A DNA stretch of 64,000 bases, taken from positions 1 through 64,000 of the forward strand of contig NZ_FUID01000078.1 in assembly GCF_900163635.1 (NCBI RefSeq), in the 5' to 3' direction. Within the stretch, counting starts at the first letter, position 1. Each line of letters opens with the position of its first letter. This stretch comes from Leucobacter sp. 7(1) (GTDB lineage Bacteria; Actinomycetota; Actinomycetes; Actinomycetales; Microbacteriaceae). This document shows, piece by piece, positions 10,049-23,592 of this stretch. The notes beneath the pieces are model-generated. The model was not told where the DNA came from. It searched no databases and saw nothing but the letters and a program-made list of their open reading frames with translations. The position numbers and the translations under genes were made by a program.

Positions 10049-10129
10049 CATTTGGAGTGATGGATCGTGTTTTCTACGCTGACACCATTGCCCCGGGGAC
10101 GGCCCGGGACCACACCGAAGGACACACTC

Positions 10130-11011
10130 ATGGCACGCATCGCTCGCACCACCCTCTTCGTCGGCGCCCTCGCCGCGCTCGCGATGGGGGCGAGCGGCTG
10201 CGCGGCGAGCGCCCCGGCGGCGGAAGCCTCCGGTGCGGGGGAAAACGCGCCGCAGACCCTGCTTGTGGCGACCGGGGCGTCGCCCAAGCCCTTCACCTTC
10301 CTTGATGAGAACGATGAGCTGACGGGGTACGACATCGAGATCCTGAAGCTTGTGGATGAGGCGCTGCCGGATCTGGAATTCGAGTTCCAGGTCGCGGAGT
10401 TCCCCGCGCTGTTCGCGGGGCTCGACTCCGGGCGCTTCAACATCGTCGCGAACAATCTCTCAGCCACCGAGGAGCGGCGCGAAAAGTACGCTTTCAGCGA
10501 CCCCTACATTGAGGCACAATTTGGTCTCGCGCTGCCCGCCGACTCGGAACTCGCGCAGGCAACCTCGATCAGCGATCTCGCTGGAAAGCGGACCTACGGT
10601 GAGCCGGGGCTGAACTTTACGAAGATCCTCGAGGCCTACAACGAAGCGAACCCGGACACCCCGATCCAGATCGAGTACACCGAGCTGGATCTGCAGTCCC
10701 AGTACAAGCAGCTCGCCACCGGCGGCGTGGACTTCATCTTCAACGACAAGGTCGTGTACACCGGGTACAGCGCGGGGTTGCCGCTGGAGTTCGTGCAGCT
10801 CGACGGTGCCAAGCTTGTTGAGGACTTCGGCACGAACCTGTTCTCGGCGTATGCAATCTCGAAGCAGACACCGGACGTCGACCGGGTTGTCGAGGAGATC
10901 AACGGTGCACTCGCTGACCTCGCCGCGGACGGCACGCTCACCGAACTGAGTGAGCGCTTCTTCGATGGTCTGGACGTGTCGCCGAAGACGGCGCCGGCCA
11001 GCAGCAACTAG
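10130..11011 (+). CDS. amino acid ABC transporter substrate-binding lipoprotein (cystine-type)
   Basis: 293-residue periplasmic-type binding protein of SBP family 3. The lipoprotein signal peptide ends at Cys24 (MGASGC). The opening of the mature domain, LLVATGASPKPFTFLDEN, and LTGYDIEILKLV are typical of polar amino acid/cystine binders such as TcyA and TcyK. The ATG at 10130 has GAAGGA seven bases upstream. It is the first gene of an operon with its permease, ATPase, a monooxygenase and an acetyltransferase, which suggests a sulfur-containing amino acid derivative as ligand (inference). Confidence 0.9.
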   Translation: MARIARTTLFVGALAALAMGASGCAASAPAAEASGAGENAPQTLLVATGASPKPFTFLDENDELTGYDIEILKLVDEALPDLEFEFQVAEFPALFAGLDSGRFNIVANNLSATEERREKYAFSDPYIEAQFGLALPADSELAQATSISDLAGKRTYGEPGLNFTKILEAYNEANPDTPIQIEYTELDLQSQYKQLATGGVDFIFNDKVVYTGYSAGLPLEFVQLDGAKLVEDFGTNLFSAYAISKQTPDVDRVVEEINGALADLAADGTLTELSERFFDGLDVSPKTAPASSN

Positions 11012-11028
11012 GGCGGGCACCGCACCCC

Positions 11029-11820
11029 GTGGACACAATTATCGATTTCCCGGCGATTGGGCAGTACGCGCTCGATCTGCTGCCCTACATCCCGATCACG
11101 CTCGCGCTCAGCATCGTCGCCACGGTGCTGGGCACGGGCCTCGGGCTGGGGATCGCGCTCATCAAGCTGGCGCGCGTGCCGGTGCTGAGCCAGATCAGCG
11201 CGATCCTCGTCTCGTACCTGCGTGGGACCCCGCCGATCGTGCAGTTGTTGCTCAACGTGAACGCGGTCCCGATCGCGGTGCTCTACATCAACCACACGTT
11301 CGGAACGAACTGGAATGCGCTCGCGCTCTCGCCGTTCCTCGTCGCGGCGTTGACGTTCGCGCTCATCGAAGCCGCCTACAGTTCCGAGACGATCCGCGCG
11401 GCACTGCTCTCGGTGGATCCGAAAGAGGTGGAGGCCGCGCACGCGCTTGGTATGACTCCGTGGCAGACACTGCGCCGCGTCACCGTGCCGAACGCCACCG
11501 TGGTCGCGTTCCCCACCCTGGTGAATCACTTCATCGGAATGCTGAAGCAGTCCTCGCTCGCGTTTGTCGTGTCGATCGTCGAGATCACGGCGTACGCGAA
11601 GATTCTGGGCGGGCGCGACTACCGCTTCTTCGAGGCCTACCTTGCGACGGCAATTATCTACTGGGCGCTCACCGTGATCGTCGAGCAGATTGCTCGCCGT
11701 GTGGAGCGGGCGCTGGCGCGGCCACGTGTTCCCGCCGCGGGCCGACGTGCGCGTCGCGTCGCGTCGTCGTCCCGGCCTGCGACGGTGCCCTCGCGCCCGA
11801 CGACGGAGGTGACCGCATGA
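11029..11820 (+). CDS. amino acid ABC transporter permease
   Basis: 263-residue inner-membrane subunit of the HisM/TcyB family with about five TM helices. The cytoplasmic EAA loop that docks the ATPase reads EVEAAHALGMTPWQTLRRVTVP at about 137-158. The last 30 residues are an unusual Arg/Ser/Pro-rich tail (RVPAAGRRARRVASSSRP). The start is GTG 11029, 17 bp after the binding-protein gene. Its stop overlaps the ATPase start by ATGA. Confidence 0.9.
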   Translation: MDTIIDFPAIGQYALDLLPYIPITLALSIVATVLGTGLGLGIALIKLARVPVLSQISAILVSYLRGTPPIVQLLLNVNAVPIAVLYINHTFGTNWNALALSPFLVAALTFALIEAAYSSETIRAALLSVDPKEVEAAHALGMTPWQTLRRVTVPNATVVAFPTLVNHFIGMLKQSSLAFVVSIVEITAYAKILGGRDYRFFEAYLATAIIYWALTVIVEQIARRVERALARPRVPAAGRRARRVASSSRPATVPSRPTTEVTA

Positions 11821-12578
11821 TCGCGCTTGAACAGCTCTCGAAATCGTTCGGAGATCGGGTGATCCTCGACCGGCTTGATCTCGAGTTCGTCGACGGTGGC
11901 GTGACCGCGATCGTCGGCCCCTCCGGTGCAGGCAAATCCACGCTGCTGCGCTCCGTCAACCTGCTGGAGCGGCCGGACGCCGGGCGGATCGTGGTGGATG
12001 ATCTGACTGTCGACGCCGCGCACGCGGCCCGCGCGGATGTGCTCGAACTTCGCCGCCGCACCGCGATGGTGTTCCAACAGTTCCAGCTCTTCGCCCGAAA
12101 GACCGCCGTGGAGAACGTTGCCGAAGGGCTCCGCGTGGTGCGCGGGCTCAGTCGCGCTGACGCGGAAGCCGCGGCCCTCGCGCAGCTCGACCGGGTGGGG
12201 CTCGCGGGACACGCCACGCACTACCCGGCCCAGCTCTCCGGCGGTCAGCAGCAGCGGGTGGGCATCGCCCGCGCGCTCGCGATGGAACCGCGCGTGCTCC
12301 TCCTCGACGAACCCACGAGTGCGCTGGATCCGGAACTCGTCGGGGAAGTGCTCCAGGTGATCCGTGAGATCGCGGCTGCCGGGCAGACGATGGTGATCGT
12401 CTCCCATGAAATGCACTTCGTGCGCCAGATCGCGGATCGCGTCACGTTCCTCGAGGGCGGACGCATCGTCGCCGACGAGCCGCCTGAGACGTTTTTTGGC
12501 CCGACCGCGAGCGAACGCACGCGATCTTTCCTCCGCGAGTACCACCTCGCCCGCGGTGGCCCCGAATACCAGATTTAG
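11817..12578 (+). CDS. amino acid ABC transporter ATP-binding protein
   Basis: 253-residue ABC ATPase of the GlnQ/TcyC type. Walker A GPSGAGKS lies at 34-41, the Q-loop in VFQQFQLF, the signature is LSGGQQQR and Walker B is LLLDEPTSALD, followed by the H-loop in VSHEM. It energises uptake of the ligand of the 10130 lipoprotein. It is coupled to the permease by a 4-bp overlap, with the monooxygenase gene starting 17 bp downstream. Confidence 0.94.
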   Translation: MIALEQLSKSFGDRVILDRLDLEFVDGGVTAIVGPSGAGKSTLLRSVNLLERPDAGRIVVDDLTVDAAHAARADVLELRRRTAMVFQQFQLFARKTAVENVAEGLRVVRGLSRADAEAAALAQLDRVGLAGHATHYPAQLSGGQQQRVGIARALAMEPRVLLLDEPTSALDPELVGEVLQVIREIAAAGQTMVIVSHEMHFVRQIADRVTFLEGGRIVADEPPETFFGPTASERTRSFLREYHLARGGPEYQI

Positions 12579-12595
12579 AGTTCGGGAGAACACTC

Positions 12596-13690
12596 ATGAC
12601 AATCACCCAGACCCCCGCCCGACCGCTGCGCAACCTCGGCTTCATCCATCTCGTTCCGTTCGACCGCAATGATCCCGGAAAGGGTCTGCGCGAGGGCGTC
12701 GAACTGTTCCGCTACGCGGAGGAGCTGGGCCTCGACAGCGGCTGGGTGCGCACCCGCCACCTGCAGTACGGGCTGCCCTCGCCCGCCGTGTTCTTTGCGG
12801 CCGTGGCGCAGCACACCGAGCGGCTCGGCCTGGGCAGTGCCGTGATCCCGGTGGGACACGAGAACCCGTTCCGCCTCGCCGAGGATCTGGGCACCGCTGA
12901 CGCGCTCTCGGGTGGGCGTGTGCTTGCCGGGGTCAGCGTCCACCCGCCCGGGTACTCCGACGCGACAAACGATCTTGTGCATGACACGGGGTGGCGTGAG
13001 GAGGACTACGGCTACGGGCGGATCGAGCGGCTGCGCGAACTGCTGGACGGCCACGCCGTCCGCGAGGTGCCCGCCTACAACGGCATCGGCGGCGACATTG
13101 ACTCGGAGCGCGTCGAGCCGCACAGCCCCGGGCTTGCCGGTCGGCTGTGGTACGGCGGCGGATCACTGCGTTCGGCCGAGTGGGCGGGCCGATCCGGCCT
13201 GAACTGGCTCGTCAGTAACATCAGCACCACAACCGACGGAGACCTCGACTTCGGCCGTGTGCAGCGCGCGCAGATCGATGCATACCGCGCCGCGCACCCG
13301 GCCGGGGATGCCGCCCGCGCCTCGGTTGCCCGCGTGATCGTGCCGACCGACGGCGCGACACCGGAACAGGTCCGCAAGTACGAGGAATACGCCGCAGCCC
13401 GCACCCCGCGCACGGAGCAGGTGCACGGCGGCAAGACGATCATCGCTCGCGATGTGCTGGGCTCCACACAGCAGATCGTGGACTTCATCCGTGAGGACCT
13501 CGCGTTCCAAGCGGCTGACGACTACCTCTTTGAGCTCCCGTTCGAGTTCGAGCTCGCTGACTGGAAGCACATCCTGCACCAGCTGGCGACGGAGATCGGG
13601 CCCGCGCTCGGGTGGCAGCCGGGCGGTGCTGGTGCGAGCGATGCCGGTGGGACCGGTGTCGGCGCGGATCCGGCGCGGAGTGCCGCGTGA
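12596..13690 (+). CDS. LLM class flavin-dependent monooxygenase
   Basis: 364-residue luciferase-like oxidoreductase. The family's TIM-barrel pattern is visible: FIHLVPF at the start, ELFRYAEELGLDSGWVRTRH, LGLGSAVIPVGHENPFRLAEDLGTADALSGGRVLAGVS. These enzymes use FMNH2 and O2, and members near cystine-type importers act on C-S bonds (the CmoO/YtmO group). Start ATG 12596 follows GGGAG (TTCGGGAGAACACTC). It overlaps the GNAT gene by GTGA. A Gly/Ala-rich C-terminal tail of about 25 residues lies outside the fold. Confidence 0.88.
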   Translation: MTITQTPARPLRNLGFIHLVPFDRNDPGKGLREGVELFRYAEELGLDSGWVRTRHLQYGLPSPAVFFAAVAQHTERLGLGSAVIPVGHENPFRLAEDLGTADALSGGRVLAGVSVHPPGYSDATNDLVHDTGWREEDYGYGRIERLRELLDGHAVREVPAYNGIGGDIDSERVEPHSPGLAGRLWYGGGSLRSAEWAGRSGLNWLVSNISTTTDGDLDFGRVQRAQIDAYRAAHPAGDAARASVARVIVPTDGATPEQVRKYEEYAAARTPRTEQVHGGKTIIARDVLGSTQQIVDFIREDLAFQAADDYLFELPFEFELADWKHILHQLATEIGPALGWQPGGAGASDAGGTGVGADPARSAA

Positions 13691-14241
13691 GCACACACGA
13701 AGCGCCCCCCGCATCCGAAGCGCTCGCCGAGGTGCGGGTCCGGGCAGCCGTGAGCGCCGATTTTGCGGCAATTGATGCCCTCATCGACTCGGCCTATGCG
13801 CATGATTACGGTCCCCGCACGGGCGGCACCGATCCCATGCACCGCGCCGCGGAGCGGGCCCGGGAACATGACGTGTGGGTGGCGGTGGATGCGGCGGGCA
13901 CGTATGTGGGGAGTGTGACAACTCGGCGACTCGGGGGCCCGCCCCTGCACGAGGACGTCGCTGACGACGAGCTGGACCTGCGCCTGCTGGGTGTGTCCCC
14001 GGCGGCGCGGCGGCGCGGGGTGGCCGCGAGCCTGATGCGGGATGTCGCGGCGCGGGCCGAGGCACAAGGCTGGCGCGCGGTTGTGCTGAAGACCGCGCCT
14101 GATATGCGCGGAGCGCACCGCCTATACGAGGCGCTGGGCTATGCACGCCAGCCTGAGCGTGACGGGCTGTGGATTGGTGGGAAGAAAGTGATTGAGCTGT
14201 TCAACTACGCGCTGCCGCTCGGTGTTCTGCGGGACGCGTAA
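13687..14241 (+). CDS. GNAT family N-acetyltransferase
   Basis: 184-residue acetyltransferase. The acetyl-CoA pyrophosphate loop (motif A) is RLLGVSPAARRRGVAASLM with RRRGVAA, and motif B is GAHRLYEALGYAR. The GTG start overlaps the monooxygenase stop, so the two are coupled. In Bacillus subtilis a GNAT (SnaA) in a comparable importer-monooxygenase operon N-acetylates S-(2-succino)cysteine before oxidation; the same role is proposed here by context. Confidence 0.88.
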   Translation: MSTHEAPPASEALAEVRVRAAVSADFAAIDALIDSAYAHDYGPRTGGTDPMHRAAERAREHDVWVAVDAAGTYVGSVTTRRLGGPPLHEDVADDELDLRLLGVSPAARRRGVAASLMRDVAARAEAQGWRAVVLKTAPDMRGAHRLYEALGYARQPERDGLWIGGKKVIELFNYALPLGVLRDA

Positions 14242-14276: not shown

Positions 14277-15233
14277 ATGACTTCGGTGATCACACCCCCG
14301 CTCGGCGGTACCCGGGCCCTGCTGCAGTCCCTGGCACCCTCGTTGGTGCCGAGTGAGCGTCGTGTCGCTGAGGTGTGCATCGAGGACCCCGAGTTCGCTG
14401 CCGCTGCCTCGGTGGCGGCGCTCGCGCGGCGGGCCGAGGTGTCGCCTGCGACAGTGGTGCGGGCCTGTCAGAAACTCGGCTTCGACGGGCTCCCGCGGCT
14501 TCGCGACTGCCTACGTCGCGACCTGGGGGCCGCCGCGGTGCGGCGCACCGTCGGACTCGACGCCACACCGGAGGTGCCGGGCGGCGCGGCCGGGGCACCC
14601 GCGGAACACCCGGTGGCACACGTGTTCACGCGCGCAATGGCCGGTATTCAGGGCGCGCTTGGCGCGCTCGATCTCGATGCGTTCGACGCCGCGGCGGGCG
14701 CGATCCGGGAAAGCAAGCGCCTCCTGATCATTGGGAACGGGGCCTCCCTGCCGTCCGCGCAGTCCGTCTCGCTGCACTTTCTCTCGAGTGGGAAGGTGTG
14801 TGAGTGCCCGGTTGACATCGTGACCCAGCACATCGCGGCGAAGCTTCTGGGCCCGGGGGACGTGTGTCTCGCGGTGAGCGATAGCGGAATGAACGCGTTT
14901 ACGCTCCGATCGGCCCGGCTCGCGACCGAGAATGGCGCGACCGTGATTGCGATTACGAGCTATGCCAAATCGGAGCTGGCCCAGATCGCGGATTATGCCC
15001 TGGTGGCTGGGGCGGACTTTCATTTCTGGAACGACAGCACAGTCACCGGCAATATCGTGCAGGTCTTGCTGCTCTCAGCGCTGCACGCCGCGGCGATTGC
15101 GCACACACCCGGAGCGGAGCGCGCTCAGGCGGCAACCTTCGATGAGGTGCGGTCCATGATTGCCGACACGTCCGATGGCGCGTCCGATGGCACGTCCGAT
15201 GGCACGGAGGCGATCCGGCGCGGAGGCACCTAA
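14277..15233 (+). CDS. MurR/RpiR family transcriptional regulator
   Basis: 318-residue regulator: an N-terminal RpiR helix-turn-helix (about 20-95, VAALARRAEVSPATVVRACQKLGF) and a SIS phosphosugar-binding domain (about 125-260, LLIIGNGASLPSAQS and AVSDSGMNAFTLRSA). The C-terminal tail contains a threefold repeat of SDGA/T encoded by a 12-bp tandem repeat (15171-15206). It probably senses a phosphorylated sugar or polyol. It lies between the cysteine-type cluster and the phosphodiester-type cluster; the large inverted repeat before the latter and the SIS domain favour the latter as target. Confidence 0.9.
   Translation: MTSVITPPLGGTRALLQSLAPSLVPSERRVAEVCIEDPEFAAAASVAALARRAEVSPATVVRACQKLGFDGLPRLRDCLRRDLGAAAVRRTVGLDATPEVPGGAAGAPAEHPVAHVFTRAMAGIQGALGALDLDAFDAAAGAIRESKRLLIIGNGASLPSAQSVSLHFLSSGKVCECPVDIVTQHIAAKLLGPGDVCLAVSDSGMNAFTLRSARLATENGATVIAITSYAKSELAQIADYALVAGADFHFWNDSTVTGNIVQVLLLSALHAAAIAHTPGAERAQAATFDEVRSMIADTSDGASDGTSDGTEAIRRGGT
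15171..15206 (+). repeat. 12-bp tandem repeat, three copies
   Basis: TCCGATGGCRCG repeated three times in frame at the 3' end of the MurR/RpiR gene, encoding Ser-Asp-Gly-Ala/Thr units. The first copy differs by one base. Confidence 0.8.
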
Positions 15234-15329
15234 GCGCATCGGTTTACCTCCCGGGGCACGAGTGTTCGCGTAGGCGGCCATCACCGTTCACTGTGCGGTC
15301 CTGAGGGGTTCACCTGCGCCGCGCATCCT

Positions 15330-15375
15330 GGAATCACACGTTTCCTGAAGTGGGAAACCTGGGAAATTCGATTCC
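15330..15375. promoter_or_regulatory. nested inverted repeats, candidate MurR/RpiR operator
   Basis: GGAATC at 15330-15335 pairs with GATTCC at 15370-15375. Inside it, GTTTCC at 15340-15345 pairs with GGAAAC at 15353-15358. The element ends 14 bp before the ABC ATPase start and just upstream of its GGGAGG ribosome-binding site, a good position for repression. The preceding gene encodes a MurR/RpiR regulator, and RpiR sites often contain GAAA/TTTC half-sites. Confidence 0.55.
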
Positions 15376-15389
15376 ATGGGAGGTGGCCG

Positions 15390-16571
15390 GTGGCCCGGCT
15401 TGTACTCAACCAACTCACCCGCTCGTTCGGCGACGTGACCGCGGTCGACCGGATCTCGCTCGACGTTGCCGACGGGGATTTTCTCGTGCTGCTCGGGCCG
15501 TCGGGGTGCGGCAAGACCACCCTGCTGCGCATGATCGCCGGGCTGCTCGAGCCGACTGGCGGCAGCATCGAGATCGACGGCACCGACATCACCGGCCTGC
15601 CGGCTCGCAAGCGGGACCTCGCGATGGTCTTCCAGAGCTACGCGCTGTACCCGCACCTGAGCGTCGCGAAGAATCTCGCCTTCCCGCTGCGCGTGCGCGG
15701 CACCGCGAAATCCGAGATCACGGAACGGGTGAGGGTCGCGGCTGAGTCCGTGGAGATCGGGCACCTGCTCGACCGCAAACCCAAAGAGCTCTCCGGGGGA
15801 CAGCGTCAACGCGTCGCCGTCGCCCGGGCGCTGGTACGCGAGCCGCAGGCCTTCCTCATGGACGAGCCGCTATCGAACCTCGACGCGAAACTGCGCACTG
15901 CCACCCGGCAGGAACTCGCGGCGCTGCACCGCACGCTCGGGGCCACTTTTGTCTATGTCACCCACGATCAGGTCGAGGCCATGACGATGGCGACAAAAAT
16001 TGCGCTACTCAACGGCGGCAGACTCGAACAGTTCGGCACCCCGGAGGAGCTCTACGACACCCCCAGTTCCGTGTTCGCGGCCGGCTTCCTCGGATCCCCC
16101 GCCATGAACCTCATGGACGCAAGCCTCACCACTACAGCGGGCACGATTTCGGTCCTCGCACCGGGCATCGAGGCGATGCTGTGGCCGGGTAGCACCCCGG
16201 AACGCGAGATCGTCGTCGGCGTGCGCCCCGAACACCTGCGTGTGCACGCCGGAGGCGCTCCCGCCGCGGTGCCGACCGCCGGGATAGCGCTCCGCGGCAC
16301 CGTTGAGCTCGTCGAGAACCTTGGACGGGAACAGCTCGTGCACTGCACCGTCGGTGAGGATCGGGTGACCGTCGCGTGCGACCGGGACGCGCAGTGGCGG
16401 CCGGGGGAGCTCGTTGTCCTCGACGCGCCCAGCGCGCACGTGCATCTCTTCGACCGTGCGAGCGGCCGCCGGCTCGAATGGCAGCCCGACGCCGACGCGG
16501 TCCCGAGCGCGAACACGGAGCTCCCGATCGGGGCTCTGCGCTCCGCTTTGCTCGGCGCCACCCAGCCGTGA
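15390..16571 (+). CDS. ABC transporter ATP-binding protein, UgpC/MsmX type
   Basis: 393-residue ATPase of carbohydrate/glycerol-phosphate importers. Walker A GPSGCGKT is at 36-43, then the Q-loop MVFQSYALYPHLSV, signature LSGGQRQR, Walker B AFLMDEPLSNLDAKLR and H-loop VTHDQ. The C-terminal third is the TOBE regulatory domain (IVVGVRPEHLRVH). Start GTG 15390 follows GGGAGG. It heads an operon with a binding protein, a phosphatase, a phosphodiesterase and two permeases; putting the ATPase first is unusual but complete. Confidence 0.93.
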   Translation: MARLVLNQLTRSFGDVTAVDRISLDVADGDFLVLLGPSGCGKTTLLRMIAGLLEPTGGSIEIDGTDITGLPARKRDLAMVFQSYALYPHLSVAKNLAFPLRVRGTAKSEITERVRVAAESVEIGHLLDRKPKELSGGQRQRVAVARALVREPQAFLMDEPLSNLDAKLRTATRQELAALHRTLGATFVYVTHDQVEAMTMATKIALLNGGRLEQFGTPEELYDTPSSVFAAGFLGSPAMNLMDASLTTTAGTISVLAPGIEAMLWPGSTPEREIVVGVRPEHLRVHAGGAPAAVPTAGIALRGTVELVENLGREQLVHCTVGEDRVTVACDRDAQWRPGELVVLDAPSAHVHLFDRASGRRLEWQPDADAVPSANTELPIGALRSALLGATQP

Positions 16572-16576
16572 TCCTG

Positions 16577-16636
16577 CCCGCTGTCTCCCTTCCCGCTGTC
16601 TCCCTTCCCGCTGCATCCCTTCCCGTTATCTCCCCG
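16577..16636 (+). repeat. 15-bp tandem repeat, four copies
   Basis: The unit CCCGCTGTCTCCCTT is repeated four times between the ATPase stop and the binding-protein start; copies 1 and 2 are identical, 3 and 4 have diverged. It is noncoding and pyrimidine-rich on this strand. Confidence 0.85.
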
Positions 16637-16654
16637 CTCCCGAAAGGTTCCCCC

Positions 16655-18013
16655 ATGCGTTTCCGCCGCCCTCTCCTCGCAACCGCGCTCGCGCTTGCCG
16701 CGGTGATCCCGCTCGCCGCCTGTTCCTCCGGGCCGGCAGTCTCCGAGTCTGCCGCCAACGTGGTCCCTGAGCTCGGTCCCGACGAACAGGTCGAGATCGT
16801 GTTCGAGAGTTACAACCTCACGCAGGCCGGGGTCTGGACCGACACCGTGAACCAGCTCGTCTCCGAGTTCGAGGAGGCTCACCCGAACATCACCGTGAAG
16901 GCACAGCCCACCCAGGGGGCCGCGGCTGCCGCCGGCAACTACGTCGGCAGCGTCCAGACCCAACTGCTCGCAGGGAACCCGCCGGACGTGGCCCAGCTCA
17001 CCTACGATGCGCTCGAGTACACGGCCACCCAGCTCGGGGCCAAGCCGCTCGCCGACATCGTCAGTGCCGAGGAGCTTGAAGCAGCCTTCGAGGGCGAGAA
17101 CCCGATGCACCCGAACGCACGGGTGCTCGCGGACTGGGAGGGCAAGACCATCGGAATGCCGTATGTGTTCTCCACCCCGGTGCTGTATTACAACGCCACC
17201 GTGCTCGAGGCGGCCGGAATCAGCGGCACCCCCGATCTCAGCACCTGGGACAAGGTCGAAGAGGTCGCCCTCCAGGTGTCGCAGTCCACGGGCAAACCCG
17301 CACTCGACATTGCGTGCACCGTGAAGGGCGGCAGCTGGTGCATGCAGGGACTCTTCAAGCCGAACGGTGCTGAAGTGCTCTCGGAGGACCGCTCCACGAT
17401 TGAGTTCGGGTCTCCTGAAGCCGTGGCCGTGGTCGAGCGCTTCGCAGAGATGACCGAGGCGGGCGCAATGCGCAGCTCCGACGCGGCGGCGCAGATGGAG
17501 GGCCTCGTGAAGGGGGACACCGCGATGATCCTCACGACCTCCGCGCTGCAGGGCATGTTCATGCAGGGGGCGGCCGCGGGCGGCTGGACGCTTGCGGCCG
17601 CTCCGATGCCCGCGTTTGCAGACCACGAAGCCGTGCCGACAAACTCCGGCTCCGCGCTATTTGTCCTGAGCGAGGATCCGGCGAAGCAGCGCGCGGGCTG
17701 GGAACTCATCAGGTTCCTCACGAGCGACCGGGCCTACGAACTGATCACGAGCCAGATCGGCTACCTGCCGCTGCGTACCGGCCTGGTCGAAGAAGGCGGA
17801 GTGCTCGCCGACTGGGCCGCCGCGAACCCGCTTGCGCAGCCGAACCTGGATCAGCTTGACCGGCTCCAGCCGTGGGTGTCCTACCCCGGAAACAGCTACG
17901 TCCAGGTCGATGATCTGCTCGCGACTGCGATCGAGGAGGTCGTCTACTACGGCAAACCTGCCGAAGCCACGATGACCGAGGCCGCGGACCGCGCTCAGGA
18001 ACTGATCGGCTAG
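16655..18013 (+). CDS. extracellular solute-binding lipoprotein, UgpB-like
   Basis: 452-residue SBP family 1 protein. The signal peptide ends in LAAC with the lipidated Cys at residue 23. Family features are VNQLVSEFEEAHPNITVKAQ, LAGNPPDVAQLTYDA, the hinge segment GMPYVFSTPVLYYN and the C-terminal AGWELIRFLTSDRAYE. GAAAGG lies before ATG 16655. The overall pattern resembles binding proteins for sn-glycerol-3-phosphate and its diesters. The ligand is inferred from the neighbouring phosphodiesterase and phosphatase. Confidence 0.9.
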   Translation: MRFRRPLLATALALAAVIPLAACSSGPAVSESAANVVPELGPDEQVEIVFESYNLTQAGVWTDTVNQLVSEFEEAHPNITVKAQPTQGAAAAAGNYVGSVQTQLLAGNPPDVAQLTYDALEYTATQLGAKPLADIVSAEELEAAFEGENPMHPNARVLADWEGKTIGMPYVFSTPVLYYNATVLEAAGISGTPDLSTWDKVEEVALQVSQSTGKPALDIACTVKGGSWCMQGLFKPNGAEVLSEDRSTIEFGSPEAVAVVERFAEMTEAGAMRSSDAAAQMEGLVKGDTAMILTTSALQGMFMQGAAAGGWTLAAAPMPAFADHEAVPTNSGSALFVLSEDPAKQRAGWELIRFLTSDRAYELITSQIGYLPLRTGLVEEGGVLADWAAANPLAQPNLDQLDRLQPWVSYPGNSYVQVDDLLATAIEEVVYYGKPAEATMTEAADRAQELIG

Positions 18014-18067
18014 CGCTCCCGCGCCCTGCAATCCACACTCCGCTGACGCGAGAACTCAGGAGAAACC

Positions 18068-18853
18068 GTGCACCACCCCACCACCACCGCAGCCCCGAAC
18101 GTCGGCGCTGCGATCCCCATCGAGGGCACTCACAACTTCCGCAGCACCGAGGGATACCCCGGCACGGCCGGCAGCATCCGACCCCGCGGGCTCTTCCGCT
18201 CCGACGCACTGCACCGCGTCAGCGCCGCCGGGAAACACAAGTTCAGCGAACACGGCATCGTCCGTGTGATCGACCTTCGATCCGACGAGGAACTGGCGCA
18301 GGCCCCCACGGTGTTCAGCGCCGCCGACGTCGAAACGATCCATCACCCGATCTTCACCGACGCCACCCTTCCCCTGAACGGTGGCTTGCTTTCCCTCGGC
18401 TCGCTCTACCGCCACATCGTCACCGAGCGGGCGGAGCGGCTCGCCGCCGCGGTGCAACTCATCGCCGATGCTCCCGAGGGCGGCGTGCTCGTGCACTGCA
18501 CTGCGGGGAAGGACCGCACCGGCCTCGTTGTCGCCGCGGCGCTCGCCGCAGTGGGGGTGTCCCGGGAACAGATCGTTGCCGACTACGCCGCGAGCGCCGA
18601 CAACCTGGCCGGGGAGTGGGCGGACAACATGCTCGCCGGCGCGGCCGCACAATTCGGCGTTCTTGACGCGGACATTCAGGAACTCATTACTGGCAGCCCC
18701 GCCGACGTGATGGCCGTAACGCTCGACTATGTGGAGCAGCAGCTCGGTGGATTCACCGATCTGCTCCATACGAACGGCCTCGACGCGGCCGGGCTGGATC
18801 GGCTGCGTAACCGCCTGATCGGCCCCACGCTGACGCCCTCGATCGCCCCCTAG
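18068..18853 (+). CDS. tyrosine-type (dual-specificity-like) phosphatase
   Basis: 261-residue cysteine phosphatase. The P-loop HCTAGKDRTG has Cys144 and Arg150, and the general acid is probably the Asp in IFTDAT near residue 98. The Lys and Asp inside the loop (AGKD) are shared with mycobacterial MptpB, which acts on phosphoinositides. No signal peptide is seen, so it is cytosolic. GTG 18068 follows AGGAG. Its place inside a solute-uptake operon suggests removal of a phosphate from the imported compound, not protein signalling; this is inference. Confidence 0.88.
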   Translation: MHHPTTTAAPNVGAAIPIEGTHNFRSTEGYPGTAGSIRPRGLFRSDALHRVSAAGKHKFSEHGIVRVIDLRSDEELAQAPTVFSAADVETIHHPIFTDATLPLNGGLLSLGSLYRHIVTERAERLAAAVQLIADAPEGGVLVHCTAGKDRTGLVVAAALAAVGVSREQIVADYAASADNLAGEWADNMLAGAAAQFGVLDADIQELITGSPADVMAVTLDYVEQQLGGFTDLLHTNGLDAAGLDRLRNRLIGPTLTPSIAP

Positions 18854-18887
18854 CGCCCTCCTCACACAGTACGAAAGGACCTTCAGT

Positions 18888-19781
18888 ATGACCTCGCAGC
18901 ACCCGCCCGTTGAGCACTTCATCCTGCACCTCAGCGACACCCATTTTGTTGGCACCGACGAAAAGCTCCACGGCGTCATCGATAGTGACGCGAATCTTCG
19001 CCGCCTGTTCGAGGACTTCGCCCGCTCTCAGGCCCGCCCCGATGCGATCGTCTTCACCGGTGATCTCGCGGACGCCGGGCAAGAAGACGCCTACCGACGG
19101 CTTCGCGCCATTGTCGAGCCTGCAGCGGCCGCCATCGGCGCGGAGGTGATTTGGGTGATGGGAAACCATGACACCCGCACGCCGTTCCGCCAGCTTTTGC
19201 TCGACTCGGACGCGGGGGAGGAGAGCGTCGACATGGTGTCCGACATCCGTGGACTCCGGATTGTCGCGCTCGACTCCACGGTGCCCGGTGCGCACCACGG
19301 TGAGATCACCGAGGAGCAGTACGCCTGGCTCGCGGAAGTCCTCGCAGAGCCCGCTCCGCACGGCACCCTGATCGCGCTGCATCACCCACCAGTACCGTCT
19401 CTGATCCGCGGGATGGAGTTTGTGGAGCTGGCCGATCAGCAGCGCTTCGCGGACGCGATTGCGGGCACCGATGTACGGGGTGTGCTCGGTGGGCACCTCC
19501 ATTTCACTACCTTCAGTGAGATTGGCGGAGTGCCCGTGTCGGTGGCATCAGCCACCTGCTACACGCAGGACCTGAACGTGGAGCCGGGAGGCATGCGTGG
19601 CCAGGACGGAGCGCAGGGTTTCAACCTTGTGCACCTGTACAACGACCGCGTGATGCACACCGTCGTCCCGATCGGCGAATTCTCGACCGTCTACGAGGTC
19701 ACCGCCGAGCAGATGCGGTCCTTCGCATCGATGACCGTCGACGAGGCAGCCGCCGCCATAGCCCACAACGCCGGCCACTAG
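18888..19781 (+). CDS. metallophosphoesterase, GpdQ/CpdA-like phosphodiesterase
   Basis: 297-residue calcineurin-like enzyme with a binuclear metal site: SDTH (Asp17, His19), GD (Asp59), GNHD (Asn93, His94), the LHHPP His at about 165 and the GGHLHF pair at about 203. This is the class III phosphodiesterase pattern shared by the glycerophosphodiesterase GpdQ and cAMP phosphodiesterase CpdA. No signal peptide. GAAAGGA precedes ATG 18888. Within this importer operon, cleavage of an imported glycerophosphodiester is the likelier role; cAMP hydrolysis cannot be excluded. Confidence 0.88.
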   Translation: MTSQHPPVEHFILHLSDTHFVGTDEKLHGVIDSDANLRRLFEDFARSQARPDAIVFTGDLADAGQEDAYRRLRAIVEPAAAAIGAEVIWVMGNHDTRTPFRQLLLDSDAGEESVDMVSDIRGLRIVALDSTVPGAHHGEITEEQYAWLAEVLAEPAPHGTLIALHHPPVPSLIRGMEFVELADQQRFADAIAGTDVRGVLGGHLHFTTFSEIGGVPVSVASATCYTQDLNVEPGGMRGQDGAQGFNLVHLYNDRVMHTVVPIGEFSTVYEVTAEQMRSFASMTVDEAAAAIAHNAGH

Positions 19782-19862
19782 TCCACTCCACGCGCTTCGC
19801 TGACCAGATCGGATTCTCGGTTGTTCACCCAGGTACTTTCCCCTCAAGAGCCAGCGGAGTCT

Positions 19863-20795
19863 ATGGAGACCGCGGAGGCCGCTCGTGCGGCCTCCGCGGC
19901 CCCTCGAACGGCCCGACGCCGCTTCGCACTGGCCCCGTATCTCTATGTGCTTCCCGCCACGGCACTGCTCATCGTGTGGACCTACCTGCCGCTCGCGCAG
20001 ACCTTCGAGCTGTCGTTCTTTGACTGGAACCTGATCCCCACGCAGCCGAAGCAGCCCGTCGGCTTCGCCAACTACGCCACGGTGCTCTCGCTCCCCGAAT
20101 TGCACCAGGCGCTGTGGAACACGCTGATCTATACCGTTGCGTTCCTCGGGGTTTCGGTGGCCCTTCCCGTCATCTTCGCCCTCCTCTCGCGGCAGGTCGC
20201 GGGCCGGGCGAAAACCGTCTACCAGGCGCTCATCTTCGTCCCGTTCCTCGTGACCCCGGTGGCCACGAGCGCGATCTGGCGTTGGATGTTCGCCCCGGAA
20301 GGGGGCACGATCCCCGCGGTGGCGCGGACCCTGGGCATCGAGCTGGGGAACGTGTTCCGTGAGCCTGACTCCTCGCTCTGGGCAGTCGTGGTGATCGTCG
20401 GCTGGCAGATGCTCGGCTTCGGGGTACTTGTCGTCTCCGCCGGGCTCGCCGGAATCAGCCCGGACTACGGCAATGCCGCCGCCACCGATGGTGCAACGGC
20501 AGCGCAGATCACGCGCAGGATCACGCTTCCGCTGCTCTCCCCGACGCTCGTGTTCCTCGGGCTCATGACGATCCTGCTCTCCGCCCAGTGGACGTTCCCC
20601 ATCATTGATCTCGCCACGCAGGGCGGGCCAGGCGGATCCTCCACGAACATCTACTACCTGCTCTACCAGTTCGGGTTCCGGAACTTTGACGCGGGGCTGT
20701 CCGCGGCCGCCGGCACCGTGTTCTTCCTCGGATTCGGGCTGATCGCGTTGCTGTTTGTTGAGCTCTCGGAACGACTGAGCTTCCATGACAACTAG
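19863..20795 (+). CDS. carbohydrate ABC transporter permease, UgpA-like
   Basis: 310-residue integral membrane protein with six predicted TM helices starting at YLYVLPATALLIVWTYLP (about residue 38). The EAA motif that contacts the ATPase reads GNAAATDGATAAQITRRITLP. The ATG at 19863 (GCGGAG upstream) is preferred; a TTG at 19821 in frame has no ribosome-binding site. It pairs with the next gene to form the channel. Confidence 0.88.
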   Translation: METAEAARAASAAPRTARRRFALAPYLYVLPATALLIVWTYLPLAQTFELSFFDWNLIPTQPKQPVGFANYATVLSLPELHQALWNTLIYTVAFLGVSVALPVIFALLSRQVAGRAKTVYQALIFVPFLVTPVATSAIWRWMFAPEGGTIPAVARTLGIELGNVFREPDSSLWAVVVIVGWQMLGFGVLVVSAGLAGISPDYGNAAATDGATAAQITRRITLPLLSPTLVFLGLMTILLSAQWTFPIIDLATQGGPGGSSTNIYYLLYQFGFRNFDAGLSAAAGTVFFLGFGLIALLFVELSERLSFHDN

Positions 20796-20861
20796 CCCGA
20801 CCGGGGCACCTGCCCGGCACCCTCAGAAGCCCGTTTCCCCCGTCGCGAAGGATCTCCGCTC

Positions 20862-21764
20862 ATGACGTTCACGCTCGTCGCACCGCAGCACCTGGAAACA
20901 CCCGCCACCGCGACCCTCATCGACTCCGCCGTACGGGCCGTGCGCGGTGCCCGACGCCGGAAGCGGCTGGGGAACATCCCGGCGCACGTCATCATGACGG
21001 CGCTCGCGATCATCTCGGTATTCCCGATCTACTGGATGTTCGTGACGGCGTTCCGCCCGGCCGACGAGATGCTGTCAACGAACCCGTTCCCGGGCCCGTT
21101 CAGCCTGGAAAACTTTCAGTACGTCTGGGATACGATCCCCATCCTCGGAATGCTGGGGAACACGTTTGGAATGGCGCTCGTGCTCGCGGTCGGGCAACTG
21201 CTCGTGGCGATCCTCGCCGCCTACGGCTTCGCGCGGTGGAGCTTCCGCGGGCAGAAAATTCTTTTCCTGCTCTTCGTAGGTTCCTGGCTCGTCCCGTTCC
21301 AGGTGACAATGATTCCGAACTACGTTCTCATCTCGAAGATGGGCTTGCTCAATACGATTCTTGGCGTGATGGTGCCGCAGCTCGCCACGGCGTTCGCGGT
21401 GATGCTGCTTCGTCAACACCTCGAATCGTTTCCGAAGGAACTCCTCGACGCGGCCGACATGGACGGGCGAGGCCCGTGGCGGACGCTGTGGGAGGTGGTG
21501 GTGCCCAATCTTCGGCCTGCGCTCGCCGCGCTCGGCATCATGCTCTTCATCAACGCGTGGAACGAGTACCTGTGGCCGTCGCTGATCATGCAACAGTCCA
21601 CTGACCTCATCCAGGTCGGCATTCGAGGGTTCATGGGGGCCGAGGGCAATAACTGGGGCGCGATCATGGCAGCAAGCGCGCTCGCCTGCCTCCCGATCTT
21701 CGGAATCTATATCTTCCTGCAGCGCTATGTGGTGGATGCGTTCGTCCGTTCCGGACTGAAGTAG
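20862..21764 (+). CDS. carbohydrate ABC transporter permease, UgpE-like
   Basis: 300-residue permease with an N-terminal cytoplasmic stretch of about 45 residues, then six TM helices (first VIMTALAIISVFPIYWMFV). The EAA loop is ELLDAADMDGRGPWRTLWEVVVP. AAGGA precedes ATG 20862. Last gene of the operon; a small hairpin follows its stop. Confidence 0.91.
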   Translation: MTFTLVAPQHLETPATATLIDSAVRAVRGARRRKRLGNIPAHVIMTALAIISVFPIYWMFVTAFRPADEMLSTNPFPGPFSLENFQYVWDTIPILGMLGNTFGMALVLAVGQLLVAILAAYGFARWSFRGQKILFLLFVGSWLVPFQVTMIPNYVLISKMGLLNTILGVMVPQLATAFAVMLLRQHLESFPKELLDAADMDGRGPWRTLWEVVVPNLRPALAALGIMLFINAWNEYLWPSLIMQQSTDLIQVGIRGFMGAEGNNWGAIMAASALACLPIFGIYIFLQRYVVDAFVRSGLK

Positions 21765-21927: not shown

Positions 21928-23592
21928 TCAGAACGGGTGTGCGGCGTTCGGGGTTTCGGCCGGTGGTGTCGGCCGTTCGTTTCGGGGCCGGGGTGGTGCC
22001 GGGTCGGTGCTGAATCTGACTCGGCTGGGTGGTCGGTCGATCGTGACGCGGCCGGTGGGGCTCACCCATTTCAGGGTCCCGCCCGGGAGCTGGCTGAGTT
22101 TCCAGTCACTGTGGTGCTTCAGGGTGTGGTGGGCCCGGCACAGCAGTGCGAGGTTTGCGGTCGTGGTAGGTCCGCCGTCGCTGGCGGCGATGGTGTGGTC
22201 GATGTCGCAGCGGTGCGCTGGGGCTCTGCAGGCGGGGGCGCGGCAGTGGAGGTCTCTCGCGGTGATGCGGCGCTGCATTTCCGGGGTGGGGGTGTATCTG
22301 TTGACGGCGAGGACGTCTCCGTCGGGGTTTGTGAACACGCCTTCCCATACGGGGGTGGCGTGGGCGACGCGGGCGGCTTCTGACGCGGGGATGGGTCCGT
22401 TGCCGACGAGTTCCGCGACCGGGGCTGGGCGCGGGGTTATGGGGTTGGTCGTTGCGCGTGTGGTGGGGCGTCGGCCGAGGTCCGCGAAGGGGCGTGCTGG
22501 GTCGAGCTGCCTGCCGGGATCGGGTGGCGGTGGTGGTTCCGGGGCGGTGTCACTCGTGTCGCCAGTGCGACCCTCGAGCACGCTCACCGGGACAATGACC
22601 TGCACCTTCGCGTGGATTTCTGGGCCCGCGGCGGGAACATCGTCGGTGGTGCCGGTGAGGAGGAGATCGCGGAGGACATCGGCGCGGACTGCGTCCCGGG
22701 AACGGTGCGGGAGGGCGGTGCCATCTGACGGGTCCGTGGTTGGGGCAGCACCATCAACGGGGCCGGTGCCCCCGGTGTTTGCCGTGTCCCCGGTGCCCGC
22801 CGTGCCCAGTGCGCCCCCGAACGCGTTGATGTCTCCGGCGGCGCCTCCATCACCTGCAGCACCGTGGTCACCGGGAACACCGACAGCGCTTCCCTGTGCG
22901 GCTGTTTCCGTGGCGGCGTCCGCGGTGCGGGTGGCGGCTTCTTCCTGGATGGTGGCCCGCGCGATGCGTGTCACCCGGTCATAGATCGCGTGTGCTTCGA
23001 CAGCGGGGAGGAACGCGACAAGTTCCGCCATCCCCGCATCCAGGTCCCGCACCCGCACACAGCGGCGCGTGCTGGCTTCTTGGTGTCGTTCCTCGAGGGT
23101 GTGCTCCGCATACCGGGCGGCGAGAGCCCGTGCGATGGGGCGGAGCCTCGTGGGGGTTTCCTGGCGGGCGTGCACGAGCACTTCCGCCTCGTACACGCCG
23201 CGACGTGCCGCGTCTGCGGGGAGGTCCCCGGTAACAAAGACTGTGCCGGCGTCGGTGATGACGCGGGCGTGGTCCAAACTAATCCGCCCAGCCTGAACCT
23301 CACGCAGTGTGGGGGTGTAGTGAGAAGTGAGAGAAGACGCAAGATCCAGGAGCCGCTCAACAGCGGTTTCACTCCGGGAGAGGGCCGCGGCAAGTTCTAA
23401 GCGCAGGGCCCGGTACCCAAGTTCCTGGCCCGCCCCGGGTGAGGTGCTGACGACCGCGTCGAGGGCGTCAGCAAGGACAGTGACGCGTTCCGCATCGAGT
23501 GCCCGTTGGTGCGTCTCGATCGTTTCGAGTCGGCTCACCGCGTGTGCGACGCGGTGGCGCTGCGCGGGGGTGAACTCTCCATTGGCGGGCAT
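21928..23592 (-). CDS. DUF222 domain-containing HNH endonuclease
   Basis: 554-residue protein of the actinobacterial DUF222 (REP13E12-like) family. The N-terminal DUF222 region covers about 20-230, followed by a Gly/Thr/Ala-rich variable linker (about 225-300) and a C-terminal HNH nuclease at about 455-505 with CRAPAC, CDIDHTIAASDGG and LALLCRAHHTLKHH. Zn-type Cys residues and the catalytic DH are present, so it looks active. These proteins are multicopy in many actinobacteria; their role is not established. ATG 23592 is the chosen start. There is no partner gene. Confidence 0.88.
   Translation of the reverse strand: MPANGEFTPAQRHRVAHAVSRLETIETHQRALDAERVTVLADALDAVVSTSPGAGQELGYRALRLELAAALSRSETAVERLLDLASSLTSHYTPTLREVQAGRISLDHARVITDAGTVFVTGDLPADAARRGVYEAEVLVHARQETPTRLRPIARALAARYAEHTLEERHQEASTRRCVRVRDLDAGMAELVAFLPAVEAHAIYDRVTRIARATIQEEAATRTADAATETAAQGSAVGVPGDHGAAGDGGAAGDINAFGGALGTAGTGDTANTGGTGPVDGAAPTTDPSDGTALPHRSRDAVRADVLRDLLLTGTTDDVPAAGPEIHAKVQVIVPVSVLEGRTGDTSDTAPEPPPPPDPGRQLDPARPFADLGRRPTTRATTNPITPRPAPVAELVGNGPIPASEAARVAHATPVWEGVFTNPDGDVLAVNRYTPTPEMQRRITARDLHCRAPACRAPAHRCDIDHTIAASDGGPTTTANLALLCRAHHTLKHHSDWKLSQLPGGTLKWVSPTGRVTIDRPPSRVRFSTDPAPPRPRNERPTPPAETPNAAHPF

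Follow-up and report, generated by a model that had tools for sequence, protein, structure and literature searches.

Import of intact phosphodiesters is described mainly for ugp. In Escherichia coli, the Pho-regulated ugpBAECQ operon serves the uptake of glycerol-3-phosphate (G3P) and glycerophosphodiesters, with a CUT1 importer encoded next to a phosphodiesterase. A review of phosphate supply in actinobacteria covers ugp together with extracellular GlpQ enzymes and, in the part available, leaves G3P uptake in Streptomyces open (PMC7866108; this and all other articles given by PMC number are cited from excerpts). A further precedent is the acc operon for agrocinopine uptake and cleavage in Agrobacterium, which encodes the binding protein AccA, an ABC importer, the phosphodiesterase AccF and the phosphatase AccG, and whose repressor, AccR, has the phosphomonoester product as its ligand (PMC4526662). 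Here, we analyse an operon from Leucobacter sp. 7(1), a member of the Microbacteriaceae, in which a Ugp-like importer is combined with a metallophosphodiesterase and a P-loop cysteine phosphatase. It lies in a stretch of 64,000 nt, hereafter the window, at positions 1 to 64,000 of contig NZ_FUID01000078.1 (assembly GCF_900163635.1). We propose, with a probability of roughly 0.7, that the operon is a Pho-regulated cassette scavenging phosphorus from an organic phosphodiester.

The operon consists of six open reading frames (ORFs) on the plus strand, separated by 83, 54, 34, 39 and 66 nt, and is preceded on the same strand by a gene for a MurR/RpiR-family protein with HTH_6 and SIS domains (14277 to 15233), which is likely its local regulator. 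The six genes encode an ABC ATPase of the UgpC/MalK type with a TOBE domain (15390 to 16571), a solute-binding protein (SBP) of the CUT1 class (16655 to 18013), which by its lipobox LAAC is a lipoprotein, an MptpB-like protein tyrosine phosphatase-type enzyme of the Y_phosphatase3 family (PTP; 18068 to 18853), a binuclear class III phosphodiesterase (PDE; PF00149; 18888 to 19781) and two CUT1 permeases, one UgpA-like (19821 to 20795) and one UgpE-like (20862 to 21764). An earlier note on this DNA had described a UgpABCE-type importer operon with a phosphatase and a phosphodiesterase between binding protein and permeases and a SIS-domain regulator upstream; this layout stands, with Ugp proteins as the nearest relatives. 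The ATPase scores just below the cut-off of its nearest model, UgpC (429.1 versus 432 bits), and the permeases are nearest to UgpA and UgpE with scores far below the equivalog cut-offs. The SBP shares 97% identity with its counterpart in L. chromiireducens subsp. solipictus (locus L065).

The operon resembles E. coli ugp in that importer and phosphodiesterase genes are neighbours, in three phosphate contacts of the binding protein and possibly in Pho control, for which a candidate PHO box speaks here. It differs in its enzymes, since UgpQ is a GDPD enzyme and the E. coli operon has no phosphatase, as well as in the presence of the RpiR regulator and in glycerol contacts of UgpB that are not conserved. 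The PTP matches PF13350 (6.9e-49). Its motif HCTAGKDRTG, singled out in the earlier note for its kinship to MptpB, is present, the P-loop HCTAGKDRT fits HCXXGKDR, and the match to MptpB reaches 1.1e-17. A loop of the form HC[TSA][AT]GKDRT occurs in 37 of 37 collected PTP rows, among which L114 is entered twice and two are in-genome paralogs; the genome itself contains three PF13350 genes. MptpB and LipA, atypical lipid phosphatases with the same P-loop, are secreted virulence phosphatases (PMC8027504), whereas the PTP of the operon sits within an importer operon. From the PTP tree, a single one, we draw nothing, because its base is weakly resolved and the two in-genome paralogs attach to the alphaproteobacterial side via a long branch.

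The PDE is indeed a metallophosphodiesterase with five metal-binding motifs (SDTH, GDLAD, GNHD, HHPP and GHLH; sought as D-x-H, GD, GNHD, HH and GHxH, simple patterns of which 9 of 70 PDE rows miss at least one), but it is not particularly GpdQ-like, as had been suggested. Its closest solved relative is Rv0805, matched over nearly the whole length at 7.8e-98, whereas GpdQ-type entries (2dxl and 2zo9, which we take to be GpdQ although the PDB name reads 'Phosphohydrolase') reach about 6e-19; GpdQ was hence rejected as the nearest relative. The PDE stays below the equivalog cut-offs of SpdA (101.2 versus 400 bits) and CpdA (91.2 versus 225 bits) and is the only Rv0805-like PDE encoded in the genome. 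Such enzymes also stand free of cassette genes: at 26 other loci (L008 to L033), no cassette gene was found within about 1.5 kb. In the one PDE tree calculated (48 PDEs, including ten of these 26), the free-standing enzymes form a clade of their own, and the operonic enzymes of the Micrococcales share a branch with them but stand outside this clade. Another group, with weak support, comprises the f25 enzymes; the PDEs of Alphaproteobacteria make up a third, and those of L131 and L129 are placed far off. Several long branches make the deep joins unsure. Judged by this tree, the cassette PDEs belong to at least three lineages. No signal peptide is obvious by eye in PTP or PDE, and the substrate should therefore be hydrolysed after import.

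Among eight loci from genome contigs (L064 to L071), six (L065 to L070) are complete in the order ATPase-SBP-PTP-PDE-PermA-PermB, the contig of L064 ends within the PDE gene, and L071 shows a weak match to part of the SBP and no other cassette gene above 50 bits. The RpiR gene precedes the ATPase in the cassettes of the Micrococcales except in L067, whose contig starts at the ATPase. The same genes in the same order in other genera argue that the operon did not arise by chance. In the family sample, SBP matches of at least 57% identity were found in 4 of 299 genomes (own included), all four with the cassette. Searching the class sample with a threshold of 1e-40 gave an SBP match in 39 of 394 genomes. 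We viewed 29 loci of the class sample (L080 to L108; the window itself not counted) with flanks of about 1.5 kb: the PDE stands beside the SBP in 25, in 11 of these together with the PTP, and neither enzyme in 4. Eighteen longer stretches comprise five complete cassettes (L109, L110, L111, L122 and L124), two with only SBP, PTP and PDE (L114 and L125), six with PDE and no PTP (L112, L113, L117, L118, L119 and L121, the last at a contig end), and five with neither enzyme (L115 and L116, as well as L120, L123 and L126 of the 35%-identity SBP group).

Moreover, 20 plasmid stretches were read, with genes assigned by annotation or tblastn. Ten of them carry all six genes, namely plasmids of Arthrobacter (L127), Microbacterium (L128), Rhodococcus pyridinivorans (L131), Sulfitobacter (L132, L144 and L146), Pseudosulfitobacter (L133), Agrobacterium (L134 and L145) and Microvirga (L135); L132/L146, L133/L144 and L134/L145 are near-duplicate pairs. 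Incomplete plasmid loci lack the PTP (L130) or the ATPase (L136 and L143, the SBP being split in L143). In L142, the SBP is shortened and neither ATPase nor the usual permease pair adjoins it. L137 to L141 carry more distant SBPs. In the Dietzia locus (L129), a short hypothetical gene occupies the PDE slot, and on this plasmid (pDK313-79, L129:2850-7373) a PDE of another lineage with its own PHO-box-like repeat lies before the RpiR gene, which is followed, and apparently split, by an IS21 element.

The gene set was thus found in Micrococcales, another actinobacterial family, Rhodococcus and Alphaproteobacteria, i.e. in two phyla, and in three orders: RpiR-ATPase-SBP-PTP-PDE-PermA-PermB, PTP-PDE-ATPase-SBP-PermA-PermB-GntR (L131) and TetR-PDE-SBP-PermA-PermB-PTP-ATPase (Alphaproteobacteria). 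Keeping the set despite the reshuffled order is strong evidence for a shared function, we infer. Over 22 cassettes, the distances correlate between SBP and PTP (0.72), SBP and PDE (0.71), PTP and PDE (0.60) and SBP and permease (0.93; Mantel p 0.0005 each), as expected of genes travelling together, although host kinship alone gives some correlation. Modules of TniQ, TniB and a Mu-type transposase, with the same protein accessions, lie on both flanks of the cassettes of Pseudosulfitobacter (L133:2103-17787) and Sulfitobacter faviae (L144:1103-16787), where the cassette is arranged as if it were transposon cargo.

The regulation was approached via the promoter. Between the regulator and the ATPase lies a candidate PHO box (15286 to 15318, plus strand) of three 11-nt units, GTTCACTGTGC, GGTCCTGAGGG and GTTCACCTGCG, of which the first and the third carry GTTCAC and the middle one is degenerate. 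PHO boxes of Streptomyces are likewise built of 11-nt direct repeat units (PMC7866108). The draft genome contains four exact GTTCAY repeats with an 11- or 22-nt period and none of the reversed control patterns. GTTCAY-N16-GTTCAY is found in the operon promoter and on contig C50 (6810-6837), where phoU and a two-component pair of sensor kinase and response regulator start divergently; it overlaps the called 5' ends of these ORFs (6837 and 6822). GTTCAY-N5-GTTCAY is found on C104 (12992-13008), about 95 nt upstream of pstS, whose start was called at 12897, and on C96 (11677-11693), where it lies within a called ORF of doubtful reality and is left unassigned. When the motif was scored out of 12 over 27 actinobacterial loci, including the enzyme-less L115 and L116, 17 cassette promoters reached at least 10 and 9 of the 27 reached 11. 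The same score of 10 was reached by 2.5% of 5203 random, mostly coding stretches of these loci and by 13 of 153 upstream regions of other genes from 25 of the 27 loci (Fisher p 1.6e-9 versus the cassette promoters); among the high-scoring control regions listed, 4 of 12 belong to cassette genes themselves. A shuffle test on 34 regions gave p values of at most 0.01 in 9 actinobacterial loci. Hence, the operon probably belongs to the Pho regulon.

Closer to the ATPase gene, just upstream of the ribosome-binding site, lies a palindromic element without assigned strand (15330 to 15375; GGAATC ... GTTTCC-N7-GGAAAC ... GATTCC), which may be the RpiR operator. Relatives carry GTTTCCTGA-N10-TCAGGAAAC before the ribosome-binding site, perfect in L068 and L072 and by eye nearly so in L064 and L066; within 3 mismatches, this element was not found in the window, which has only the looser palindrome. 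A TGAATGAACGTTCATTCA-like palindrome, likely a TetR operator, stands upstream of the PDE gene in L132, L133, L134 and L135; inspection by eye did not reveal it in L136 and L143.

In UgpB of Phaeobacter, the phosphate is held by Tyr64, Ser143, Ser266 and Tyr342 and the glycerol by Glu88, Gly303 and Arg393 (PMC12718374). We mapped these contacts onto the SBP alignment by counting along printed alignments. The equivalents of Ser143, Ser266 (Ser or Thr) and Tyr342, in the window SBP S173, T295 and Y370, are conserved throughout the 52 cassette SBPs (which form 38 clusters at 90% identity), in all four SBPs without the enzymes and in 5/5, 2/2 and 2/2 members of more distant groups; among generic CUT1 SBPs, only 5 of 25 have them (L039, L040, L044, L056 and L057). 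At the glycerol positions, the window SBP has Tyr117, Gly332 and Asp419. The Gly is kept in all 52 cassette SBPs, the Glu88 column is Phe or Tyr in 52 of 52 and the Arg393 column Arg in only 12 of 52. The loss of Glu88 and Arg393 is less telling than the kept trio, because generic CUT1 SBPs are also rarely acidic or Arg at these columns. With the phosphate trio kept and the glycerol contacts changed, the SBP looks like a binder of phosphate esters whose partner alcohol is other than glycerol. The gene is the best match of its own genome to the UgpB model (40.5 bits). Strict UgpB membership was rejected, since the SBP scores 40.9 bits against the cut-off of 411 for the equivalog NF008211 and the Glu and Arg of the glycerol contacts are replaced. 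A profile made from cassette SBPs only, i.e. without UgpB and without distant relatives (including E. coli UgpB would be circular), ranks UgpB structures first, narrowly above sugar binders. The 7c0f structure group, which we take to be the U3G-binding protein of Thermus thermophilus, gave only moderate matches to this profile.

Regulation, direction of transport, catalytic order and ligand class are suggested by gene content, conservation and the patterns of motifs and residues, from which the following picture emerges. Under low inorganic phosphate, a phosphate response regulator of the PhoP/RegX3 type would activate the promoter via the GTTCAC repeats, and the RpiR protein would add local control, probably dependent on a ligand. 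The lipoprotein SBP would recognise the phosphate group of the intact diester, which permeases and ATPase would bring into the cell. In the cytoplasm, the Rv0805-like PDE would cut it into a phosphomonoester and an alcohol, and the PTP would strip the phosphate from the monoester, so that inorganic phosphate enters metabolism. The PDE is placed before the PTP because of their chemistry, and phosphate supply is assumed as the purpose because of the promoter. The core of the earlier proposal, i.e. uptake, cleavage and dephosphorylation of a phosphodiester, is supported by the conservation in two phyla with shuffled order, the PHO-box-like repeats and the phosphate-contact residues of the SBP; for glycerophosphoinositol, its example of a ligand, nothing specific was found. 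The same proposal knew of no described pathway with such a gene set. The acc operon of Agrobacterium follows the same logic with its binding protein, importer, phosphodiesterase and phosphatase (PMC4526662). A description of the cassette itself was not found in titles and abstract openings, a search whose coverage excluded most subscription papers.

Several observations weigh against this proposal. The PTP is missing in L112, L113, L117, L118, L119 and L130, and both enzymes are missing in L115 and L116. The PTP is hence not indispensable; in the cassettes without it, the final dephosphorylation could presumably be carried out by a general phosphatase. At the SBP, the column of the fourth phosphate contact, Tyr64, is uncertain, variable and not clearly conserved, and a search with the single SBP sequence ranked a maltose-type binder first, ahead of UgpB. 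As to the promoter, 10 of the 27 actinobacterial loci score below 10/12, and the Fisher p value is optimistic, because the loci are partly related. The match of the 22-nt pattern at the operon is not independent, because the pattern was defined on this promoter; the other matches are. In the shuffle test, the seven upstream regions taken together from alphaproteobacterial cassettes and L131 were not significant (p about 0.07 to 0.98). Of nine alphaproteobacterial cassettes scanned for PhoB boxes, seven scored at least 11/14 (3.9% of 3197 in the control), a result that we did not count, as the sites overlap the TetR-type palindrome and six of the seven come from near-duplicate pairs. Finally, substrates of class III PDEs are not readable from sequence (PMC4222275).

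In favour of the proposal, some of the more distant SBP relatives are accompanied by phosphodiesterases of other types. Both Thermus loci (L137, by annotation, and L138) have a YmdB-type enzyme whose match to TIGR00282 is below the cut-off; YmdB cleaves cyclic nucleotides. A metallophosphoesterase adjoins the distant SBP in L141. In the 35%-identity group, an enzyme of the metallo-beta-lactamase (MBL) fold occurs at three of five loci (L075, L126 and L139, in the last on the opposite strand behind the operon), and the best NCBIfam match of those in L126 and L139, below its cut-off, is the model NF041851 of a cyclic-nucleotide-degrading phosphodiesterase. Among the neighbours scanned, no MBL enzyme, PDE or PTP was found in L120, L123 and L140; hence, the association with a partner phosphodiesterase has exceptions. 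In an actinobacterium (L126:8106-14850), the genes for the MBL-fold enzyme, SBP, permeases and ATPase form a single array with that for a HAD hydrolase, which overlaps the ORF called for the ATPase; this array may be a parallel phosphodiester cassette made of unrelated enzymes. On the Thermus thermophilus plasmid (L137:371-10585), the SBP relative, permeases and YmdB-type enzyme lie beside the phn genes of C-P lyase, which also speaks for the proposal, and L138 is near genes for polyphosphate kinase, Ppx and a phytase-like esterase.

These observations bear on the question of the ligand, for which narrower versions of the proposed function can be formulated. RNA-derived 2',3'-cyclic nucleotides are a serious, if still tentative, alternative: nucleotide-type phosphodiesters from RNA breakdown would be imported, the PDE would open the ring, and dephosphorylation would yield nucleoside and inorganic phosphate. 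Rv0805 and SpdA prefer 2',3'-cyclic nucleotides (PMC4222275), and the CUT1 SBP of T. thermophilus near UgpB binds the dinucleotide U3G (PMC12718374), i.e. a phosphodiester. The YmdB-type and MBL-fold enzymes beside related SBPs and the aromatic residue at the Glu88 position, which would be compatible with base stacking, point in the same direction. On the other hand, we noticed no gene for nucleoside or base catabolism among those of the cassettes, sugar phosphates are the usual signals of RpiR regulators, and substrates overlap between the PDE families. Rather doubtful to us is ordinary uptake of glycerophosphodiesters or G3P by a Ugp system in which a metallophosphodiesterase has replaced UgpQ, with glycerophosphocholine (GPC), glycerophosphoethanolamine (GPE), glycerophosphoglycerol (GPG) or glycerophosphoinositol as ligands. 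The UgpC-like ATPase, the three phosphate contacts in common with UgpB and the ranking by the cassette-only profile would fit such Ugp kinship. The replaced or variable contacts to the glycerol hydroxyls argue against a plain glycerophosphodiester held in the manner of UgpB, with the alignment less sure there, and the UgpB cut-off is failed by far. Moreover, no GDPD gene was seen in 19 annotated plasmid stretches (L135 is unannotated) or among 30 neighbour proteins scanned, and the three GDPD genes of the own genome all lie away from the operon.

Sugar phosphodiesters, taken up as in the acc system with RpiR sensing the phosphosugar product, appear unlikely, even though acc shares importer, phosphodiesterase, phosphatase and a repressor that senses the monoester product (PMC4526662), a SIS-domain regulator is present here and CUT1 transporters mostly carry sugars. 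No gene for sugar catabolism was noticed within the cassettes. Furthermore, the acc proteins belong to other families, namely a peptide-type binding protein, the GDPD-like AccF and the inositol-monophosphatase-like AccG. Quite improbable is a simple sugar importer in which PTP and PDE have regulatory rather than catabolic roles, acting on protein phosphotyrosine and cAMP. Protein phosphatases and cAMP phosphodiesterases do occur in the respective families, and the maltose-type binder leads the single-sequence SBP search, but the co-occurrence in two phyla, the differing PDE lineages, the PHO-box-like promoter and the phosphate-contact residues speak against it.

Two features next to the operon complete the description of the locus. 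Upstream (10067 to 14241) lie genes for an amino-acid-type ABC importer, a luciferase-like monooxygenase and an acetyltransferase; the latter two were rejected as cassette members, as they adjoin it only in L065, L068 and L072 and look like a separate operon. The ORF that follows on the minus strand (21928 to 23592) is by eye of the DUF222/HNH endonuclease type.

Altogether, we regard the cassette as real and conserved, and probably as a Pho-controlled, phosphodiester-scavenging system of the importer-plus-phosphodiesterase kind. A more far-reaching idea, which we hold to be doubtful, is that of a system under Pho control and spread by horizontal transfer: 2',3'-cyclic nucleotides from RNA, or short nucleotide diesters, would enter the cell intact through a CUT1 transporter of the sugar type and lose their phosphate in the cytoplasm, and the PDE would have been replaced several times over evolution. 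A Pho-linked cassette that brings along both PDE and phosphatase and occurs on plasmids and in two phyla would add a route of phosphorus scavenging, and it would give some Rv0805-like and MptpB-like enzymes a likely role outside signalling and virulence.

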